Virus record (IMG/VR): IMGVR_UViG_3300042564_003785
Location: 1-21,248 of that record
From: a virus
Direction: 5' to 3' (one strand)
Length of the DNA stretch: 21,248 bases
Below are positions 6,301 to 16,408 of this stretch, in pieces. The number at the start of each line of letters is the position of its first letter. The first letter of the stretch is position 1. The position numbers and the translations under genes are program-made. The notes beneath the pieces are model-generated. The model was not told the DNA's origin and made no database searches. It saw nothing but the letters and a program-made list of their open reading frames with translations.

Positions 6301-9047
6301 ACGCTTCCAATATCGTTTAAGGTCTTGGATGCTCTTTCTAAGATTCTGGTTCCTCCTTTGATCAATGCCGCACAATATCCAAACGCAGAAGAAGAACCGT
6401 TATGCGATCTTCCAATTTTGAACACTTCTGTTGCTGCGTAAGTATTCCAAGTTGAGCTTGGAGTAAATGAATTGCTTATCTGAGAACCATTAGAAAATAC
6501 AATAACAACGTCACCATTTGAAGCGCCTGTAAATACAGCATTTGACCATAAATCATTCAACGAAGAAATCGCTGATCCCGTAATTAAAGCTCCAGCAGAA
6601 CTTAATCTTACTGCTCTAATTTCTGAAGTGGCAGTAGCTACTGAAGAATTATTGACTGTAACTGCACTCGCTGTACCAATTCCATAAGAAACAACTCCAG
6701 TCCAAGTTGCTACTGAGCCAACAACTTGACCATATGCCGCACCTCCAACCATATCTAGATCAATCTCTAAGTCAGAAAATACACCAGATATATTGCTAAA
6801 GGTTAAAGAATCCCATCTTGGATTTCCAGAAGCGACTGTATTAGCTGGAAATTGATAAGGAATTCCGCTTAAAAGTGTTTCGCCAGTTGTTGTCGCCCCC
6901 GATATTCTTCCTTCAACTGTGTGAACATCAACAATTGCAGACTTCAATAAAAATTCTCCTGTAACGGTAATTACAGAACCATATCCAGCATTATTATAAC
7001 CAGATATGTTGAGTTTTTTTACTTGAGTTTGGCGTCTCGCTCTAATTTGCTCAAGTGTTCCTGTGAAGCCTCCATCTGCGCCTGTTAAAGCATTTAAGTC
7101 TGAAACAGCATAATTTCCAGACGGAATGTGAACATAGATTCCAGAATCTAAACCGTCTTTAAACTCGCCATCAACTTTGATTGTTGAAGCGTTAGCATCG
7201 ACTTCCAAGATGCGTCCGAATGTTCTTGCGACGTTTCTAATCTCGTCGCTTACGGTGAACAAGTCGCCGGGTTGAAGATAAGCCGCTTCCAAGCCTCCAA
7301 CGAAGCTAACCGTATCAACCTCAAATATAGAGGTGCTAATGACGTATCTGCCAATTCTCTTTGCTTCTGATCTAGAAGTGCAACCAGCAGCGTTAATTTT
7401 AAATGGATTTAAACCATATTTTCTGATACCATCGGTATCTTCAATGTATTCGATTTTTGTTTTATAAGAATCGTATCTATCGTTATACGTCACTTCAACG
7501 GAAGTGTAACGCATATTTCTAGCTGTTTCTGTATAATTGAACACTCCGTCCTTAACAGACGAGTTGCTGAAATTCATTAACTGTTCTTTTGGTCTATCAA
7601 CAAAGAATGAGAATCCTTCTGTGTTCCAAAATACAATCCCTTTAAAGATTGCGGCGATATCTTTTAGAATATTATAAGCTTGATCTTTGTTGTAGAAGAT
7701 GATGTTACAAGTGTATCTTGGTTCTAATCCACCTTGACCGTCTGGCACGCCTTTAAACCTTCCGTCGTCATCAACAGCATCGCAATAACGCCCAATATCA
7801 TAAAGGTTCCATTTATCAACAGAAGATGAATCAATGTAATTACCTAAACCATAATTCGGATCAGTAATGATGTCATATAAAACCCAAGCAGGATTATCTG
7901 TCCAACCAATCTTAAATGTTCCGTCCCAATTACCATAGTAAATTTTATTGCTATCGTAGAAATTAGAATCACAGAACTGACTCAGTTTAGAGTCAGAATC
8001 GTGAATCATACAGAACTTTCCGCCGCCAGTATCTTCCGACAGCTCTCTCAAAGTTCTTGTGCCAGCGAAATCCGAATCGCTATGAAGATAATAGAAATTA
8101 ATGCAGTTCTCTCTAGCGTGAGACAACAATGTATCATATGTTTCTGGAGACATTACTTCTGGAACTGTACCAGAAAAATATACCACTTTTCTTACAGTAT
8201 TAGTCCAAAGACGCTTAGTTACATTAGATTCAGAGGCTTTGCCAACTTGATCGCTAATGCTAAACTGACTCTTTCTCAAAAAGAAATTTGCGATAATAGT
8301 TTCCGCAATATTCTCTGCGGACACTGATATTGGAGATGAGCTTAACGCATCAAATAACTTTTTGTACAAATTGGTTTGATTTGCTCCAACAGAATCTGGA
8401 GTCTCTACTTCTGTGAATGTTTCGTCTCCAAGATAAGCGCCAAAATAAGATACTGTATCTCCTGTTGACTCATTAATTTTATAAGACCCACTAGCTTTTG
8501 TTTCCCAAATCGAGAATCTTACATACTTATATCCAGAAATGATTTTCGCAATCATATCCTTTAAGTTTCTCTTTAAAAGAGAGCGAGTAGCAAAATCCAT
8601 GTTCTGATCGACCATGAATACAACATCCAAGTCGTTAGGGTTTCCATCGTAATCTGGATTAGCGTAAACATAACGGCGATCTAATCCATTTCCACCTAAA
8701 GGATAATAATTAGAAGGAATCTTAACTTTCTTCATCTTTACGTCATATTCTCTTTTTGGAGGACTAGAGAATGTTCTTGAGTCAAACTTCAGCCCAGCGT
8801 GCGCCGTCATTGGATACGAAAAACTTCTATCAACAATTTCGATTACAGACTCTACGCTAAGATCTCTTTTAACTAATGGAGAAATAGTTTCTGGCGTAAT
8901 TTTCTCAATAGTCAAGTATCTATCTCTGCCATTGAATGAATCAGGCAATATAATCTCTTCATTATCAGCAGCTATAGATACTGATACTGGATCAACTGGT
9001 CCATTTTCTCCGCCTTCACTATTAGGATCGTTTGGGTCGTATGACAT
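3366..9047 (-). CDS. Giant tail-tip / host-specificity protein, C-terminal part of a split lambda gpJ homologue
   Basis: Distal tail-tip protein that binds the host surface. Residues 41-117 and about 369-600 align with lambda gpJ: KIPSNYYP, then GNWDGTFKIGW, DPNYGLGN, DKWNLYDIGRYCD, EPRYTCN, RYGLNPF-type and GCTSRSEAKR motifs. Lambda gpJ is about 1130 residues; this protein alone is 1893. Between the IPSNY motif (110-114) and GNWDGTF (372-378) sits a VWA-like domain (139-350) with D147/N149/D151 and T225. Further modules: possible ILEI-like region (790-915), CBM5/12-like motif (950-997), FN3-like domains (about 1158-1262, 1605-1716), a Y-D-L...W...HY...YG..EGR motif (1542-1590), a Y-I-G-W-G-T-F module (1753-1803) and a beta-rich C-terminus (1810-1893). 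The first ~190 residues of lambda gpJ are encoded separately at 9630-10529. The start ATG has no Shine-Dalgarno. Arginine is mostly AGA. Confidence 0.93.
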   Translation of the reverse strand: MSYDPNDPNSEGGENGPVDPVSVSIAADNEEIILPDSFNGRDRYLTIEKITPETISPLVKRDLSVESVIEIVDRSFSYPMTAHAGLKFDSRTFSSPPKREYDVKMKKVKIPSNYYPLGGNGLDRRYVYANPDYDGNPNDLDVVFMVDQNMDFATRSLLKRNLKDMIAKIISGYKYVRFSIWETKASGSYKINESTGDTVSYFGAYLGDETFTEVETPDSVGANQTNLYKKLFDALSSSPISVSAENIAETIIANFFLRKSQFSISDQVGKASESNVTKRLWTNTVRKVVYFSGTVPEVMSPETYDTLLSHARENCINFYYLHSDSDFAGTRTLRELSEDTGGGKFCMIHDSDSKLSQFCDSNFYDSNKIYYGNWDGTFKIGWTDNPAWVLYDIITDPNYGLGNYIDSSSVDKWNLYDIGRYCDAVDDDGRFKGVPDGQGGLEPRYTCNIIFYNKDQAYNILKDIAAIFKGIVFWNTEGFSFFVDRPKEQLMNFSNSSVKDGVFNYTETARNMRYTSVEVTYNDRYDSYKTKIEYIEDTDGIRKYGLNPFKINAAGCTSRSEAKRIGRYVISTSIFEVDTVSFVGGLEAAYLQPGDLFTVSDEIRNVARTFGRILEVDANASTIKVDGEFKDGLDSGIYVHIPSGNYAVSDLNALTGADGGFTGTLEQIRARRQTQVKKLNISGYNNAGYGSVITVTGEFLLKSAIVDVHTVEGRISGATTTGETLLSGIPYQFPANTVASGNPRWDSLTFSNISGVFSDLEIDLDMVGGAAYGQVVGSVATWTGVVSYGIGTASAVTVNNSSVATATSEIRAVRLSSAGALITGSAISSLNDLWSNAVFTGASNGDVVIVFSNGSQISNSFTPSSTWNTYAATEVFKIGRSHNGSSSAFGYCAALIKGGTRILERASKTLNDIGSVKFIYRDLLAMSKLQPYYTIIQADVGNQQQSSFQSWKTGTTYKRGAYVQVDSKPYYAKVDHVSSTWQGFDYRPDSPTFSKWSLGSNLGYSTVGFPKDFFGGTKVAVSEALTTAHVVDAFNSIGIEMYEGPGPLGQTDLRNLAEIDGIGYSGLIYGTGYPIGFYNLDLSTSPQNLSSLEPGSLYVLSGSGVEPKFYKTIATKEEEANLYGIVGLEYHPNKEDYVEREIDDTSSTIYVKSPYDIVLKPEAPTNLLYNGVHGGTGISLSWTATTTDLADFTGYKIYVSRPDYSTEHDSALTEFFFVPKTALSTGIPINDIYGQYDIDVYAQGKAPYKFLSNSAASKTFHVLPTPTLVVNNNGSHTVDRLLVTGMKVDTADIKSLDYNVIWYPREDDPAEPEELVGYGQGNFTSSDVTFRWKYIDPTGGVISTVEKMRNNPFISFPPKVKVEVLDQGGNVLDSVENYQGLSYRIDQDTNKRLISRETVNYKNVVPTRNLSLRVTVEGVNGLDSYGRFNSFNVLPEYSKIDVIDSFQDSPYYVLSGFFGNADGVKLAVWNSGYDNVITGSGIKGSDSLLIRSETGEIAYENIVEAFKSADGFNGVAEGSVRNVYAKPVGNGITINYRGSDPDYTAYVNYYEDLVKYYDNNILQTNKSKEVWGQEHYSQYGLNEGRELFKLNDGTFGDADLNQVPNNKVGFSGLHITVFPEAVSYNELVFNCYSPTSNKDVYKVDIYSGDTVGFTPDTTDFTNLHKEQGLNETRAYSNTIRLSSSTIERKKWYYFKFQPYDDFGKGAMSPVVSGYLEDKADKAPVAKPIELPLNGGADQNDVILVNQMAQASNKGLKFKIVTFGVNVNWTTLGAPTQYVIGTEFKYSGETYSGTTAGTVKRVEEVVALTETETSSLLNMKAQTKSTVTLPEDLEEGSSYNMMNNGKEDIYIKTSSAAGSAGGETITILKPGERTEIMRIGDEWIDSRGDNLYLD
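3377..3392 (+). terminator. Short hairpin just after nrdB; weak terminator or mRNA 3' end candidate
   Basis: A perfect 6-bp inverted repeat, AGAGGT-TATC-ACCTCT, lies 7 nt after the nrdB stop and also inside the last codons of the convergent gpJ-C gene. No T-run follows it on the + strand, so it is not a typical intrinsic terminator. It may stabilise the nrdAB transcript end, or be chance. It is the only hairpin I see near this convergent junction. Confidence 0.25.
7998..8633 (-). other. VWA-like domain inserted in the gpJ homologue (residues 139-350)
   Basis: Sub-gene region. Seen: hydrophobic strand DVVFMV followed by D147-Q-N149-M-D151, where VWA domains carry the DxSxS metal site. Then NQTNLYKKLFDAL with the conserved MIDAS threonine (T225), strand KVVYFSG where the usual TDG is found, and INFYYLHSDSDF...TLRELSEDTGGG, the typical last strand and helix of VWA proteins. 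The MIDAS is altered (Asn and Asp for the serines, and Ser-Gly in place of Asp-Gly), so metal binding may be weak or changed. The domain interrupts a stretch that is continuous in lambda gpJ. Function as an adhesive module is inferred. Confidence 0.7.
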
Positions 9048-9063
9048 AAATTATTATATTTTA

Positions 9064-9618
9064 TTATGCTGTTATTGCAAATGTTCTAATGTTGTTTGTC
9101 GCATTTTGCCCAGAAGCCGTTAAAACTACCATAGAATTATCTGGTGAAGTCGCGTTTACATATATAGAATGAAGTCCAACAGCTAACTTTGATGTAATTT
9201 CAGCTGGAATAGTAAAACTGAATACTCCAGTAGTTGAATTTATTTGAATTGCTGTCGCCTCTACTTGATAAGCTGGATAAGTTGAAGTTGTTCTAGCTAC
9301 ATCTATTTGAGCAATTACTTTTATAGCTGGCATTACTGTATTGTTTGTTCCATCAGATAACAAATAGGTTGCCGTTCCGCTAATTGTAATAGCTGCTCCT
9401 TTTGCGTAGGTTACACTAGCTAATTCATTAAACGTTTTAGCTGTTCCAGCTCCAGTTCCTACTGAACCAGCAGTATAGTTTAATCTATTAACTGCTTTTG
9501 GGACATAGTCGATCATCTTTCTTTTCGTCAAGAAATTAATCAAAGACAAAACGCTAGAGTAGTTTCTAGGTTTAATCTTTAACGCTTTATCTTCTTGAGC
9601 TGTTCTTATGATAGGCAT
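9064..9618 (-). CDS. Small beta-rich protein encoded between the two gpJ halves, function unknown
   Basis: 184 residues, no family recognised. A basic N-terminus (about 1-45, many Lys/Arg) is followed by a Thr/Ala/Val/Ile-rich region of alternating hydrophobic strands (about 60-184). That region contains GAAITISGTATYLLSDG and GVFSFTIPAEI stretches that look like an Ig-like sandwich. No signal peptide, cysteines or catalytic motif is seen. It sits 11 nt after the gpJ-N stop and 16 nt before the gpJ-C start, so all three should be co-transcribed. A structural tail-tip role (linker or decoration between gpJ-N and gpJ-C) is inferred from position only. No Shine-Dalgarno is visible. It may represent a module that in other phages lies inside gpJ. 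Confidence 0.75.
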   Translation of the reverse strand: MPIIRTAQEDKALKIKPRNYSSVLSLINFLTKRKMIDYVPKAVNRLNYTAGSVGTGAGTAKTFNELASVTYAKGAAITISGTATYLLSDGTNNTVMPAIKVIAQIDVARTTSTYPAYQVEATAIQINSTTGVFSFTIPAEITSKLAVGLHSIYVNATSPDNSMVVLTASGQNATNNIRTFAITA

Positions 9619-13500: not shown

Positions 13501-13614
13501 GTTTTTTTTATTAGCGTTGATAGCTGAAAATACTTCTTTTGGAGAACTAATGTTTAAATTAAAACATTCTCCAAATAAGTTACGCAACTCTCCATGTAAA
13601 TATACGTTAGTCAT
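10531..13614 (-). CDS. Expanded tail assembly / tip protein, lambda gpI-like N-terminus with PA14-like module
   Basis: 1027 residues against about 220 for lambda gpI. Residues 1-85 are ubiquitin-like and gpI-type (YLHGELRNLFGECF, ending HIVPVVWGA). A Gly/Ala hydrophobic region follows (92-161), then KSYLFGNKPSNVSQGQAVPVGYGRL-type residues (177-201), matching the gpI segment ending in VLPVLYG. The remaining ~800 residues are additions: two related H-G...G..V.V.G....NG...IT...NTF repeats (431-471, 521-560), a Y-I-G-W-G-F module (717-751), a PA14-like domain (about 765-860: SDDAADLYLDG, then TLGYHRLYARF), and a second Y-I-G-W-G-T-F module (896-936). Lambda gpI is needed for tail-tip assembly. 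Here the extra domains suggest it stays in the virion and binds sugars (inferred). It overlaps gpK by 8 nt and has no Shine-Dalgarno. Confidence 0.88.
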   Translation of the reverse strand: MTNVYLHGELRNLFGECFNLNISSPKEVFSAINANKKNFANTVKKLAIKGVLYRIVIDDEVLSNPKELYIEKAPKEMHIVPVVWGAGSNSGGILMLAAGVALIAMTGGLGFAGLGIFSAGTTAGVAGAVATTAAGSLAGLSGAVAAIGAGLAIQGVMTLLFPQPKPDFNQEVAAGGKSYLFGNKPSNVSQGQAVPVGYGRLLVGSSQISAATNHYPLATDIKQLMTPADKAINDYTELVSEDEAPSPYNLNADGFSTNQSANDSESETFSSINILNSYINVITSSAAKVATDPVEVIVKTNGEVVSNPDISTYNPDIVYDWKELSATKKGAIAIETAFAFQNGLAYRSYDPIPFQLKTKATNAINTSANYFVTYPLNTLIKWGPTEFANLNFPTFDSSYKFVKKEVTKYLHTNYISGATISSLTVTVTTKTNHGYAAGNIVEVTGITGSPNVNGSKTITSTPASNTFTYVLASGTGDGSYAAANNATAVVTRYFVATESGYSPKPITAATRNLDTVTVTSSSHGLSVGNVVVVDGLTGTVYANGTRTITEVATNTFKFVISGATSTETYTTASTANAIRESQPFPIVNNAVNTSFWAEITAPAFQSTYKALKANAGVIPELGALGGDWASAWSVVAGPSTSPENKTDFDSLIDNFPAYTVQGVYDQELNMTNLRTITRSTLDRNSLDNYAMEFYGYLYVEMDKTKVINSYDAQEGVTYEIVKIGDTGQWAELGLTGVGGAPIIPELGMTFTKNASLPSSLGNGKIYPVNKYSFKIDSDDAADLYLDGQLASSFYGNHGFGMQLVPPPAINDLSSTTQEVTLTLGYHRLYARFQDGIGSDGISLYSKSKLDGGSYSSYALIAKDKLFYSVLNDLNVSKSAKFRSKVLPIAASAMKFGRKYKIITSGTTNWTAIGASSSSVGTVFFKTATSVTGSGGFVFEDLLSYAQQTSATSNRLVRFVSQRPQASKSGLSVYNSQWQCSAKIGALELKSAPVKISITFNETLANTSARGAIDPTLSYNDPPIRKDK
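11035..11322 (-). other. PA14-like domain in the gpI homologue (residues ~765-860)
   Basis: Sub-gene region. The strand pattern Y-S-F-K-I-D-S-D-D-A-A-D-L-Y-L-D-G, then L-T-L-G-Y-H-R-L-Y-A-R-F, and G-S-D-G-I-S-L-Y is typical of the PA14/GLEYA sugar-binding fold. The gpL homologue holds a second copy (14434-14706) with the same landmarks. Carbohydrate binding is the usual role in the family but is inferred here. Confidence 0.65.
11935..12324 (-). repeat. Two diverged tandem protein repeats inside the gpI homologue
   Basis: Residues 431-471 and 521-560 share the pattern H-G, then A/S-x-G-N-I/V-V-x-V-x-G-L/I-T-G, x-N-G-x-x-T-I-T, N-T-F. They are 90 residues apart and each is followed by a Thr/Ala-rich segment. 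The nucleotide sequences have diverged, so this is an old domain duplication, not a recent DNA repeat. Such small beta modules are frequent in phage virion proteins; their role is unknown. Confidence 0.6.
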
Positions 13615-13969
13615 AGTATTTTTTGAGCATTTCTATATACTCTTTATTTACATGAGGAACCTTGGGAACGATAAGATTAAATTTTTCTGTTTGTTTGCTG
13701 TAAATCAAGTAAGGAATACATGAATTTTCGCAGTTGAATCTATCAAATTTAGATTCATCTTCTTCTGTCTTTGGATGAGTATGATAAATAGCAGCAAGCT
13801 TTCCGCTTTTGATTTGCTTGATAACTTCTAAAGGATGAATCTCAAATACGTCGTTTTCGTAAACAGCGATATTTTTTGCTGGTTCAGTTTTGATTTCGCC
13901 GTTTTCAATATAGACGAATCCACAAACCTCAACACTAGATGTAGCTGCGTGATCAATAATAGATTTCAT
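13607..13969 (-). CDS. JAB/MPN (JAMM) metallopeptidase-type tail protein, lambda gpK-like, without NlpC/P60 domain
   Basis: 120 residues. A full JAMM zinc motif is visible: E14 in SSVEVCGFV, then H63-T-H65-P, S73 and D76, with the exact H-x-H-x7-S-x2-D spacing. Lambda gpK carries a JAB-like N-terminal domain plus a C-terminal NlpC/P60 peptidase; here only the JAB part exists. The position between gpL and gpI is that of gpK. The likely role is in tail-tip assembly or processing, possibly as a metallopeptidase; the substrate is unknown. Its start lies 2 nt after the gpL stop and it overlaps gpI by 8 nt, so translation is probably coupled. The missing NlpC/P60 domain may be encoded elsewhere or be dispensable. 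Confidence 0.9.
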   Translation of the reverse strand: MKSIIDHAATSSVEVCGFVYIENGEIKTEPAKNIAVYENDVFEIHPLEVIKQIKSGKLAAIYHTHPKTEEDESKFDRFNCENSCIPYLIYSKQTEKFNLIVPKVPHVNKEYIEMLKKYYD

Positions 13970-13971
13970 GG

Positions 13972-15489
13972 TTATTGTTGAGACATTCCGTATTCTTCTG
14001 TACCGGGGAATCCGCCAAAAGGAAGTCCATCTTGATTTCCAAATCTCAATTTGCAGCCTTTAATACTCTTGGAGCATTGGTCGGGAATCCAATATTCTTT
14101 ATTGAAGTATGGATCTTTTGTACTGCTAGATGTATGGTTTTTAGCGCAAACAAATACTTTATGAATCGGCTCCCAATTTGGAATTGCGTTAATATCAGAT
14201 TTAGTTACTTTGATATTGTGATTTTCTCTATAAACATAATCGCCAACTTTGTAATTATAGTTAGAAATCCATTTGTCCCTGTTGACTAATAAACCAAAAG
14301 TTGATTCATTAATGCCTACATATCTAGAGATTGCGGAGTCTGTTCCAAATCTTTGAGCGCTTGTTAATGTTGAAGCCTCATCCGCATCGTAGTAGTACCT
14401 AGAAACAGGAACAGCTGCCCATGATGTAACCGCTGGCGGTTTATAGTAAATAGTTAAAGCTCCACCATCTCCTTGATTATACCATCTAATTAAAACTCTA
14501 TGATAACCTTCTTTTAAGAAAATAGTTCCTTCTTCTTGTGGAGCGGTTGTATTTTGTGGACCACTACCATAATCTCCAGCAATTACGTCGCCATCAATAA
14601 ATAATTCAGCAGCATCATCAGGATCAACTCCAAGAGAGTAGCTTCCAGCTTGCCCTTTATCTACTTTGAAGTAACCGAGAAATTCAGTAAATACATAAGT
14701 ATCGTTTGTCACTGTAACAGAACTAACGGCAGATTCAGAAGAGAATGTCGCTTGAGCAATTTTGGTAGTAAACTCAGAAGAATTTGCTGGAGAATCTGGA
14801 CTACCAGTAGTTGTGTAAACTCTTTTTAAAAGACCTGCTCTAAAATCAGTTGCAACAGAAAGTCTTAAATCGTTCTCGTCCGCAACAGGCGCGCCCATAT
14901 AACGGCATCCGTTACCTCTATAATGAAAAGAACAATAACGAGACATTACAATTCTTTTTGGGAAATTTACTCCATCAAGTTCAAGCGGCGAAGCTAACTC
15001 AAATTCTACAACAGCTTTATTTTCACTAGAGCGTCTTAGAATAAAGAAAACTTGATCTTCTAAGCCCGCTTTTGGATCGGCGCTTCCATAAGGATTAGCT
15101 CCAAGTGGTTTAGCCGCTGTTGGCGAAAAGTTTTTATCGTCAAGAAATTTAACAAATGTGCGCTTTCTTACCACTTTTGCGCCAACTAAGTTGTTATATC
15201 TTCTGATTAAGTTAGATACGAAGAAGTCTTGATTAGAAACTGCTAATTTTGGTCTAGGAAGTGTTCCGTCGCCTTTACTCTCAAACCCAGAACTTTGAAT
15301 TGGAAATGGCGCATACTCTTCACCTTGCCAATAAACCGAACCTTCTATTCCATTAGTGCCGCCATGAATGTAAAGTTTCTCATCAGGAAAGTTAACGTAA
15401 TCATAGTAAATGACAAAAAACTCTAGCAGCGCGGATGGTTCCAGCGAGAATAGAGCAGTATTGACTAAATGGTTAGATTCCCTTGACAT
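13972..15489 (-). CDS. Tail-tip protein, lambda gpL-like, with [4Fe-4S] cysteines separated by a large inserted region
   Basis: 505 residues against about 230 for lambda gpL. Residues 20-210 follow gpL: YWQGEEYAPFPIQSSGFE, LPRPKLAVSN, LVGAKVVRKRTFVKFLD, FELASPLELDG, then C186-x8-C195 and PVADEND. The C-terminus gives C472-x6-C479 and GGF. These two cysteine pairs have the same internal spacing as the four iron-sulfur ligands of lambda gpL. Between the pairs about 276 residues are inserted, including a PA14-like domain (262-352: SLGVDPDDAAELFIDGD, KEGYHRVLIRW) and a CBM5/12-like motif (409-470: YKVGDYVY, FVCAKNH, KEYW). It is the first gene of the tail block on this strand. The start is preceded by GGTAAAAGGAA very close to the ATG, a weak Shine-Dalgarno. 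Product placement at the tail tip, below the tube, is known for gpL. Confidence 0.92.
   Translation of the reverse strand: MSRESNHLVNTALFSLEPSALLEFFVIYYDYVNFPDEKLYIHGGTNGIEGSVYWQGEEYAPFPIQSSGFESKGDGTLPRPKLAVSNQDFFVSNLIRRYNNLVGAKVVRKRTFVKFLDDKNFSPTAAKPLGANPYGSADPKAGLEDQVFFILRRSSENKAVVEFELASPLELDGVNFPKRIVMSRYCSFHYRGNGCRYMGAPVADENDLRLSVATDFRAGLLKRVYTTTGSPDSPANSSEFTTKIAQATFSSESAVSSVTVTNDTYVFTEFLGYFKVDKGQAGSYSLGVDPDDAAELFIDGDVIAGDYGSGPQNTTAPQEEGTIFLKEGYHRVLIRWYNQGDGGALTIYYKPPAVTSWAAVPVSRYYYDADEASTLTSAQRFGTDSAISRYVGINESTFGLLVNRDKWISNYNYKVGDYVYRENHNIKVTKSDINAIPNWEPIHKVFVCAKNHTSSSTKDPYFNKEYWIPDQCSKSIKGCKLRFGNQDGLPFGGFPGTEEYGMSQQ
14434..14706 (-). other. PA14-like domain in the gpL homologue (residues ~262-352)
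   Basis: Sub-gene region. It shows F-L-G-Y-F near the start, the D-P-D-D-A-A-E-L-F-I-D-G turn, the K-E-G-Y-H-R-V-L-I-R-W strand and a G-G-A-L-T-I-Y-Y-K-P-P end, all landmarks of PA14-type beta sandwiches. It lies inside the insertion that separates the two iron-sulfur cysteine pairs of gpL. The sister copy is in gpI. Confidence 0.65.
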
Positions 15490-16012: not shown

Positions 16013-16029
16013 ATAATCATAATGATTAT
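16013..16029. promoter_or_regulatory. 17-bp perfect palindrome covering the start of the exported-protein gene
   Basis: ATAATCAT-A-ATGATTAT, two 8-bp arms around one A. It spans the first ATG (16022) and abuts the second (16028). It could be an operator for a dimeric regulator or, in mRNA, a weak AT-only hairpin over the start codon. AT-richness makes chance possible. Confidence 0.3.
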
Positions 16030-16408
16030 GAACAAAATTAAATTATTCATCGTTTCGTTAACTCTAGCTCTTTTGGCTACCAATGCTCAGGCTGGTATCC
16101 CATTTTATCTTGAGTCCAAGAATAACACCTCCGCTACTAACTGGAATACCCAAACATATTCCCATGAAGCTCGCGTTGGCGTAGCTTATCCTTGGGTTTA
16201 TGCCGAAGTTGGCAAAGGTCGCCAATACGTCAACTCCTTTAACAAGGGCGAAAACATGGACACCTTTGAAGTTGGTACGAAGATCACCGTCAAAAAGGTT
16301 GATGTTAAGCTCAAGTTTGAAGGAAGCAACGGCAAGCGTTTAAATTCTAAATTGCCGTCAAAATTCCTTGACACAGGCGGCGAAGTCCGCATTAGATATA
16401 ACTTCTAA
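16028..16408 (+). CDS. Small exported beta-rich protein, possible outer-membrane or periplasmic protein
   Basis: From ATG 16028, 126 residues; an earlier in-frame ATG at 16022 would add Met-Ile. A clear Sec signal peptide is seen: MNKIKLFIVSLTLALLATNAQA, with AxA cleavage before GIPF. The mature part is about 104 residues. It has amphipathic strands (ARVGVAYPWVYAEVGKG, FEVGTKITVKKVDVKLKFEG, GGEVRIRYNF) and ends in Phe, as outer-membrane barrels often do. It seems short for a standard eight-stranded barrel, so it may be a half barrel that oligomerises, a periplasmic sandwich, or a lysogenic-conversion-type protein in the spirit of lambda Lom (analogy only). A palindrome covers its start, and its stop overlaps the deaminase ATG by 1 nt. 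A strong hairpin plus T-run lies 46 nt past its stop. Confidence 0.75.
   Translation: MNKIKLFIVSLTLALLATNAQAGIPFYLESKNNTSATNWNTQTYSHEARVGVAYPWVYAEVGKGRQYVNSFNKGENMDTFEVGTKITVKKVDVKLKFEGSNGKRLNSKLPSKFLDTGGEVRIRYNF

Follow-up and report, generated by a model that had tools for sequence, protein, structure and literature searches.

An uncultured virus, represented by the IMG/VR record IMGVR_UViG_3300042564_003785, was analysed over a stretch of 21,248 bases (the window). Its minus strand carries tail genes in the order gpL, gpK-like, gpI, gpJ-N, a gene for a protein of 184 residues and gpJ-C, which is the L-K-I-J order of phage lambda with extra pieces. The gene considered here, gpJ-C, encodes the C-terminal piece of a split gpJ-like tail hub and central fibre protein. 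Within its core, between the PSNY and WDGTF motifs, lies an insert that is predicted to fold as a complete von Willebrand factor A (VWA) domain, with a degenerate metal ion-dependent adhesion site (MIDAS).

The assignment of gpJ-C to the gpJ-type hubs follows from matches to PHROG 31 (E-value 3e-108), to PF13550 (2e-19) and to gpJ-type chains of the PDB (1e-64 to 5e-51); the PF13550/PHROG 31 core, PSNY and WDGTF are all present, as in the lambda gpJ type. The printed alignments with the PDB chains (lambda, F2-pyocin and others) break after residue 116 and resume at 367-369, and the PDB chains are contiguous there. When residues 117-366 are deleted in silico, the flanks align with gpJ of lambda, KS9, vB_VaM_H2 and Pmp14 with a one-residue gap. 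The first-pass annotation, made from the letters of the DNA, had counted about 255 residues between the two motifs, and the insert bears this out. Its coordinates for the domain, 7998-8633, are right at the high end; the low end drops the last helix, and the VWA proper extends to 7962. A further insertion of 8 residues (DDGRFKG region) distinguishes gpJ-C of the clade from canonical gpJ just before VPDG, at about residues 426-435.

The spacing from PSNY to WDGTF is 15 residues in lambda and in five other fetched gpJ genes. In the IMG/VR survey it is again 15 in 100 distinct genes and 18-23 in three more, and four genes outside the search pattern were read as 15 (three) and 23 (one). None of the 107 distinct canonical IMG/VR gpJ genes (spacing 15-23) has a domain between the motifs, and the earlier description of the site as unusual for a tail hub is borne out by this alignment survey. 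Two canonical genes of the survey have an 8-residue loop extension at this site, so the PSNY-WDGTF turn tolerates insertion. In the clade of the window, by contrast, the spacing is about 261-272 residues in all 37 distinct members. At least 109 IMG/VR viral contigs encode the insert, which rules out a chimera or other artefact of assembly as its source; clustering of the clade at 97% identity leaves 31 distinct inserts, and ten records tested have one copy each. No relative of the insert was found in INPHARED by tblastn, nor any cellular or prophage relative in a scan of the genome contig collection, and a literature search limited to open-licence papers returned no earlier description of a VWA insertion in a gpJ hub. 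The insert is a feature of a whole clade of uncultured phages, at a site otherwise unoccupied in gpJ hubs. Two gpJ genes without the VWA, L189 and L139, have open frames that start unusually near WDGTF (173 and 78 residues), and may be either split or frameshifted.

The VWA assignment is carried by evidence from predicted structure. Sequence routes (Pfam, PHROGs, phmmer and profile searches of the PDB, tblastn against INPHARED) gave nothing significant for the window insert, and a few of the 31 members match the VWA, VWA_3 or Sec23_trunk profiles weakly, at sub-threshold E-values of 0.017-0.12. AlphaFold2 was run on gpJ-C residues 20-653 with 21 relatives and on the insert alone with 31 relatives. 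In the first run the insert is folded, with a predicted local distance difference test score (pLDDT) of about 75-80, and the gpJ core is not modelled (pLDDT mostly <50). The insert alone reaches a mean pLDDT of 69.6 and a predicted template modelling (TM) score of 0.75, with the strand (E) and helix (H) order E-H-E-E-H-H-H-E-H-E-H-E-H. Both models have the beta1-alpha1-beta2-beta3-alpha-beta4-alpha-beta5-alpha-beta6-alpha order of the VWA superfamily. Foldseek returned 181 PDB matches at E<=0.001, with E-values down to 4e-6 and target-normalised TM scores up to 0.63; the 50 of them that were listed are VWA-fold proteins, such as TFIIH subunits, VWF A1, Sec23/24, inter-alpha-inhibitor and integrins. 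Together with the model score, these matches support the VWA fold that the first-pass annotation had proposed. For one of these 50, the title of the PDB entry is that of a B19V capsid. Many VWFA-annotated proteins of a viral library match the insert as well, and matches to haemagglutinin, DHFR and RNase P were dismissed as chance. Positions 150-173 of the insert have pLDDT <50, and positions 142-162 a conservation of 0.84.

We judged the MIDAS geometry from sequence and secondary structure. The altered residues are those named by the first-pass annotation, and the window lacks three of the five canonical ones. Three positions are invariant across all 31 distinct inserts, namely the first Asp, Thr, and the Ser that replaces the last Asp. 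The second position, canonically Ser, is Asn except for Lys in 2 of the 31; the third, also canonically Ser, is Asn, Asp, Gly or Ser, so that both canonical serines are replaced in nearly all inserts. In place of the D-x-S-x-S...T...D pattern of metal-dependent VWA domains, the clade has D-x-(N/K)-x-(N/D/G/S)...T...S. TFIIH p34 keeps positions A1 and A4, has A2 and A3 replaced and has Ser at A5; its metal binding was judged unlikely and no bound ligand was seen (PMC4094531). The clade pattern agrees with that of p34, and by this analogy the clade VWA is probably metal-free. A divalent ion could still be held by the altered ligands Asp147, Asn149, residue 151, Thr225 and Ser292, and the invariance of the first Asp and of Thr would fit this. 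We regard it as very improbable, however, since two distinct inserts have Lys for the second ligand and two have Gly for the third, and since no ligand was seen in p34 with the same substitutions.

The VWA is conserved to a degree intermediate between the two parts of gpJ-C that follow it. Mean pairwise identity in the clade is 0.69 for the VWA, 0.83 for residues 367-560 and 0.48-0.59 for the last 730 residues (1161-1893). For the VWA, the ratio of nonsynonymous to synonymous substitution rates is 0.04-0.12, which indicates purifying selection; the core has lower values and the C-terminal part mostly higher ones. Conservation within the insert is highest in the linkers (0.90 and 0.96 vs 0.79 overall), the top loops are more conserved than the bottom ones (0.82 vs 0.73), and the tip of the beta2-beta3 ribbon is the least conserved part of the domain. 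The VWA and core trees have 13 of 17-18 splits in common, with a distance correlation r of 0.85. Judging by these trees, the VWA is vertically inherited, an integrated part rather than a freely exchanged cassette; free swapping of the module among phages is rejected by their congruence. Over residues 117-350, the window and L031/L034 differ at third positions about twice as much as they do in the core that follows, a possible trace of local recombination.

Table 1. Features of gpJ-C and of the neighbouring tail genes in the window.
Feature	Positions	Strand	Basis
gpJ-C, C-terminal piece of split gpJ-like tail hub/central fibre protein, 1893 residues	3366..9047	-	PHROG 31, 1727, 2589; PF13550; PDB gpJ chains
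PSNYYP motif, residues 111-116, left border of insert	8700..8717	-	alignments with gpJ
Insert, residues 117-366, about 250 residues, not in canonical gpJ	7950..8699	-	alignment breaks and spacing survey
N-terminal linker GGNGLDRRY..., residues 117-138, almost invariant	8634..8699	-	conservation mean 0.90 (insert segment 1-28)
Predicted VWA-like alpha/beta domain, residues 139-362	7962..8633	-	AlphaFold2 models; Foldseek PDB
MIDAS motif 1, D147-Q-N-M-D151 (canonical DxSxS)	8595..8609	-	sequence; variants across 31 inserts
Long beta2-beta3 ribbon, residues 175-204; domain varies most at its tip	8436..8525	-	AlphaFold2 and conservation
MIDAS motif 2, T225, invariant	8373..8375	-	clade alignment
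Conserved segment IANFFLRKSQFSI..., residues 252-272, low model confidence in its later half when the insert is predicted alone; may contact a partner	8232..8294	-	model and conservation
MIDAS motif 3, S292-G293 (canonical Asp-Gly), Ser invariant	8169..8174	-	clade alignment and tally
KIYYGNWDGTF, right border of insert, start of conserved gpJ core	7914..7949	-	gpJ alignments; WDGTF from residue 374
Phage-tail_3 (PF13550) match, residues 455-609	7221..7685	-	Pfam
184-residue protein between gpJ pieces; Ig-like by eye	9064..9618	-	open reading frame kept in 9 aligned family members
gpJ-N, N-terminal gpJ piece, 299 residues	9630..10529	-	PHROG 31 E 1e-11; blastp to Pmp14/H2/KS9 gpJ N-termini
gpI-like tail assembly protein, long C-terminal extension, 1027 residues	10531..13614	-	PHROG 32 E 3e-32 at 1-211; E1_FCCH matches
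gpK-like protein, 120 residues, JAB domain (PF14464) alone	13607..13969	-	Pfam
gpL-like protein with PA14-type insertion	13972..15489	-	PF05100 E 2e-55; PA14 E 1.6e-5; flanking cysteines

The genes around gpJ-C are altered as well (Table 1). The stretch from the HDII-insertion to the receptor-binding domain is not a single chain here: it is divided between gpJ-N and gpJ-C, with the 184-residue frame between them. By alignment, gpJ of the clade is broken within FNIII-A, near lambda residues 165-174; FNIII-A spans residues 72-215 of lambda gpJ (PMC10721106). Split gpJ and VWA occur together in 37 of 37 distinct family members; of 101 canonical gpJ, 99 are in one piece. A gene for a protein of 178-195 residues fills the gap between the pieces in most relatives examined, one of which has a 350-residue version. 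The 184-residue protein is probably immunoglobulin (Ig)-like; it has no match in INPHARED, and a contig scan with this single member matched its own contig alone. In gpL the four Fe-S cysteines are kept (186, 195 / 472, 479), with about 240 extra residues between the pairs (about 209-446). In all eight clade loci measured, 280-349 residues separate the two pairs, and a PA14 match lies inside this gap in all seven loci scanned, at E-values of 1e-8 to 1e-3, some under the Pfam cut-off. At the sequence level, a PA14-type domain is nested in the 4Fe-4S domain of gpL between the cysteine pairs. On the inferred placement of both domains, the VWA may sit next to PA14 on the exterior of the tail tip. 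The gpI-like protein has 850-1030 residues in relatives and weak PA14 similarity besides its E1_FCCH matches, and the gpK-like protein gave no NlpC/P60 match. A small protein on the plus strand (16022-16408) matches PF24653, a cyanophage outer-membrane-like beta barrel, just below the cut-off (E-value 8.6e-6).

The insertion and its site, the predicted VWA fold, the loss of the MIDAS, the conservation, the vertical inheritance and the association with split gpJ are directly supported. As for function, we tentatively suggest, at a little short of an even chance, that this complete VWA with its probably metal-free MIDAS serves metal-independent docking in the PSNY-WDGTF turn rather than receptor binding. 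The VWA would lie on the exterior of the cone of the tail tip, close to the HDII-insertion/FNIII-A region, and its near-invariant linkers would keep it in a rigid position. Through its conserved top face and the likewise conserved segment 252-272 it would dock a partner in the virion, such as gpJ-N, the 184-residue protein, gpI, gpL or an adjacent gpJ, much as metal-free VWA domains such as that of TFIIH p34 do. The docked domain would help to keep together, and to trigger, a tail tip whose gpJ comes in pieces. We favour docking because of the p34-type MIDAS, the near-invariant linkers, the conserved top face, the conserved but poorly predicted segment 252-272 and the hub in pieces. Several points weigh against it. 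The docking partner is putative; the VWA and the gpJ split co-occur in one clade, so that the link between the two may go back to one chance event; and the gpJ core was modelled poorly by AlphaFold2, so the placement of the VWA is taken from lambda numbering. A host receptor that is itself conserved might just as well be what the conserved face binds.

This leads to the main rival, which is also where the first-pass annotation had arrived: it took the VWA for a candidate receptor-binding module, and the fold, the site and the altered MIDAS of that proposal stand, unlike its step to an adhesin. In such a scheme, the VWA and the PA14 of gpL, and perhaps of gpI, would form an adhesion ring round the tail tip that touches the host ahead of the central fibre or together with it, and the long variable beta2-beta3 ribbon would do the recognising. 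We hold this to be a real possibility, although less probable than docking. It has to be taken seriously, since in other systems VWA and PA14 serve adhesion: both are generally used in bacterial adhesins, ligand-binding domains of bacterial RTX adhesins emerge from split host domains (PMC12077191), and phage 0305phi8-36 has a VWA swapped into a baseplate/fibre gene (PMC2147016). The PA14 inside gpL and the ribbon tip, the most variable part of the VWA, are in keeping with it. However, the MIDAS is degenerate, purifying selection and congruent trees do not speak of swapping or diversification, and the C-terminal half of gpJ-C is more variable than the VWA. That the domain merely lends the hub bulk or stiffness, with no specific partner, seems improbable to us: inserted domains are common in tail hubs, e.g. 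FNIII-A and the OB/beta-sandwich of lambda gpJ (PMC10721106, PMC11101478), but invariant loop residues and linkers, in a domain fixed in every clade member, are not easily accounted for unless they make a specific contact. A more elaborate form of the docking proposal, which we consider rather unlikely, is a multi-chain hub of gpJ-N, the small protein and gpJ-C clamped by the metal-free VWA, with PA14 in the Fe-S loop of gpL, in which inter-chain contacts of the VWA would control tail opening.

Hubs of the gpJ type are among the best-studied parts of phage tails and their core is regarded as fixed; here one turn of that core accepts a whole 250-residue domain. Along with it the clade has retained a hub encoded in pieces and, in the Fe-S loop of gpL, another nested domain, which makes a testable case for the entry of VWA and PA14 modules into viral tail machines. 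It is also a warning that profile searches overlook domains such as this one.

Among the closest known systems, lambda gpJ (PDB 8iyk, 9e7m) shares with gpJ-C 38% identity over 273 residues of the hub core as well as PSNY, WDGTF and PF13550; however, it has no VWA between the motifs, and it is one chain with an intact FNIII-A, not split across genes. Its own inserted domains (FNIII-A and the HDIV beta-sandwich/OB) likewise sit within the scaffold of the hub (PMC10721106, PMC11101478), but they have other folds and occupy other sites. Phage 0305phi8-36 gp164 is similar in that domain swapping placed a VWA in a tail protein (PMC2147016); it belongs to another gene and phage lineage, its VWA is recognisable by sequence, and it is not an insertion in a gpJ core. 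VWF A1 and integrin I domains resemble the insert in predicted fold, and the integrin metal site is intact, unlike that of the clade. The VWA domains of TFIIH p34/p44 are among the best fold matches, and p34 has an equally degenerate MIDAS; yet they show no significant sequence similarity to the insert and belong to a eukaryotic transcription and repair factor rather than being nested in a phage hub.
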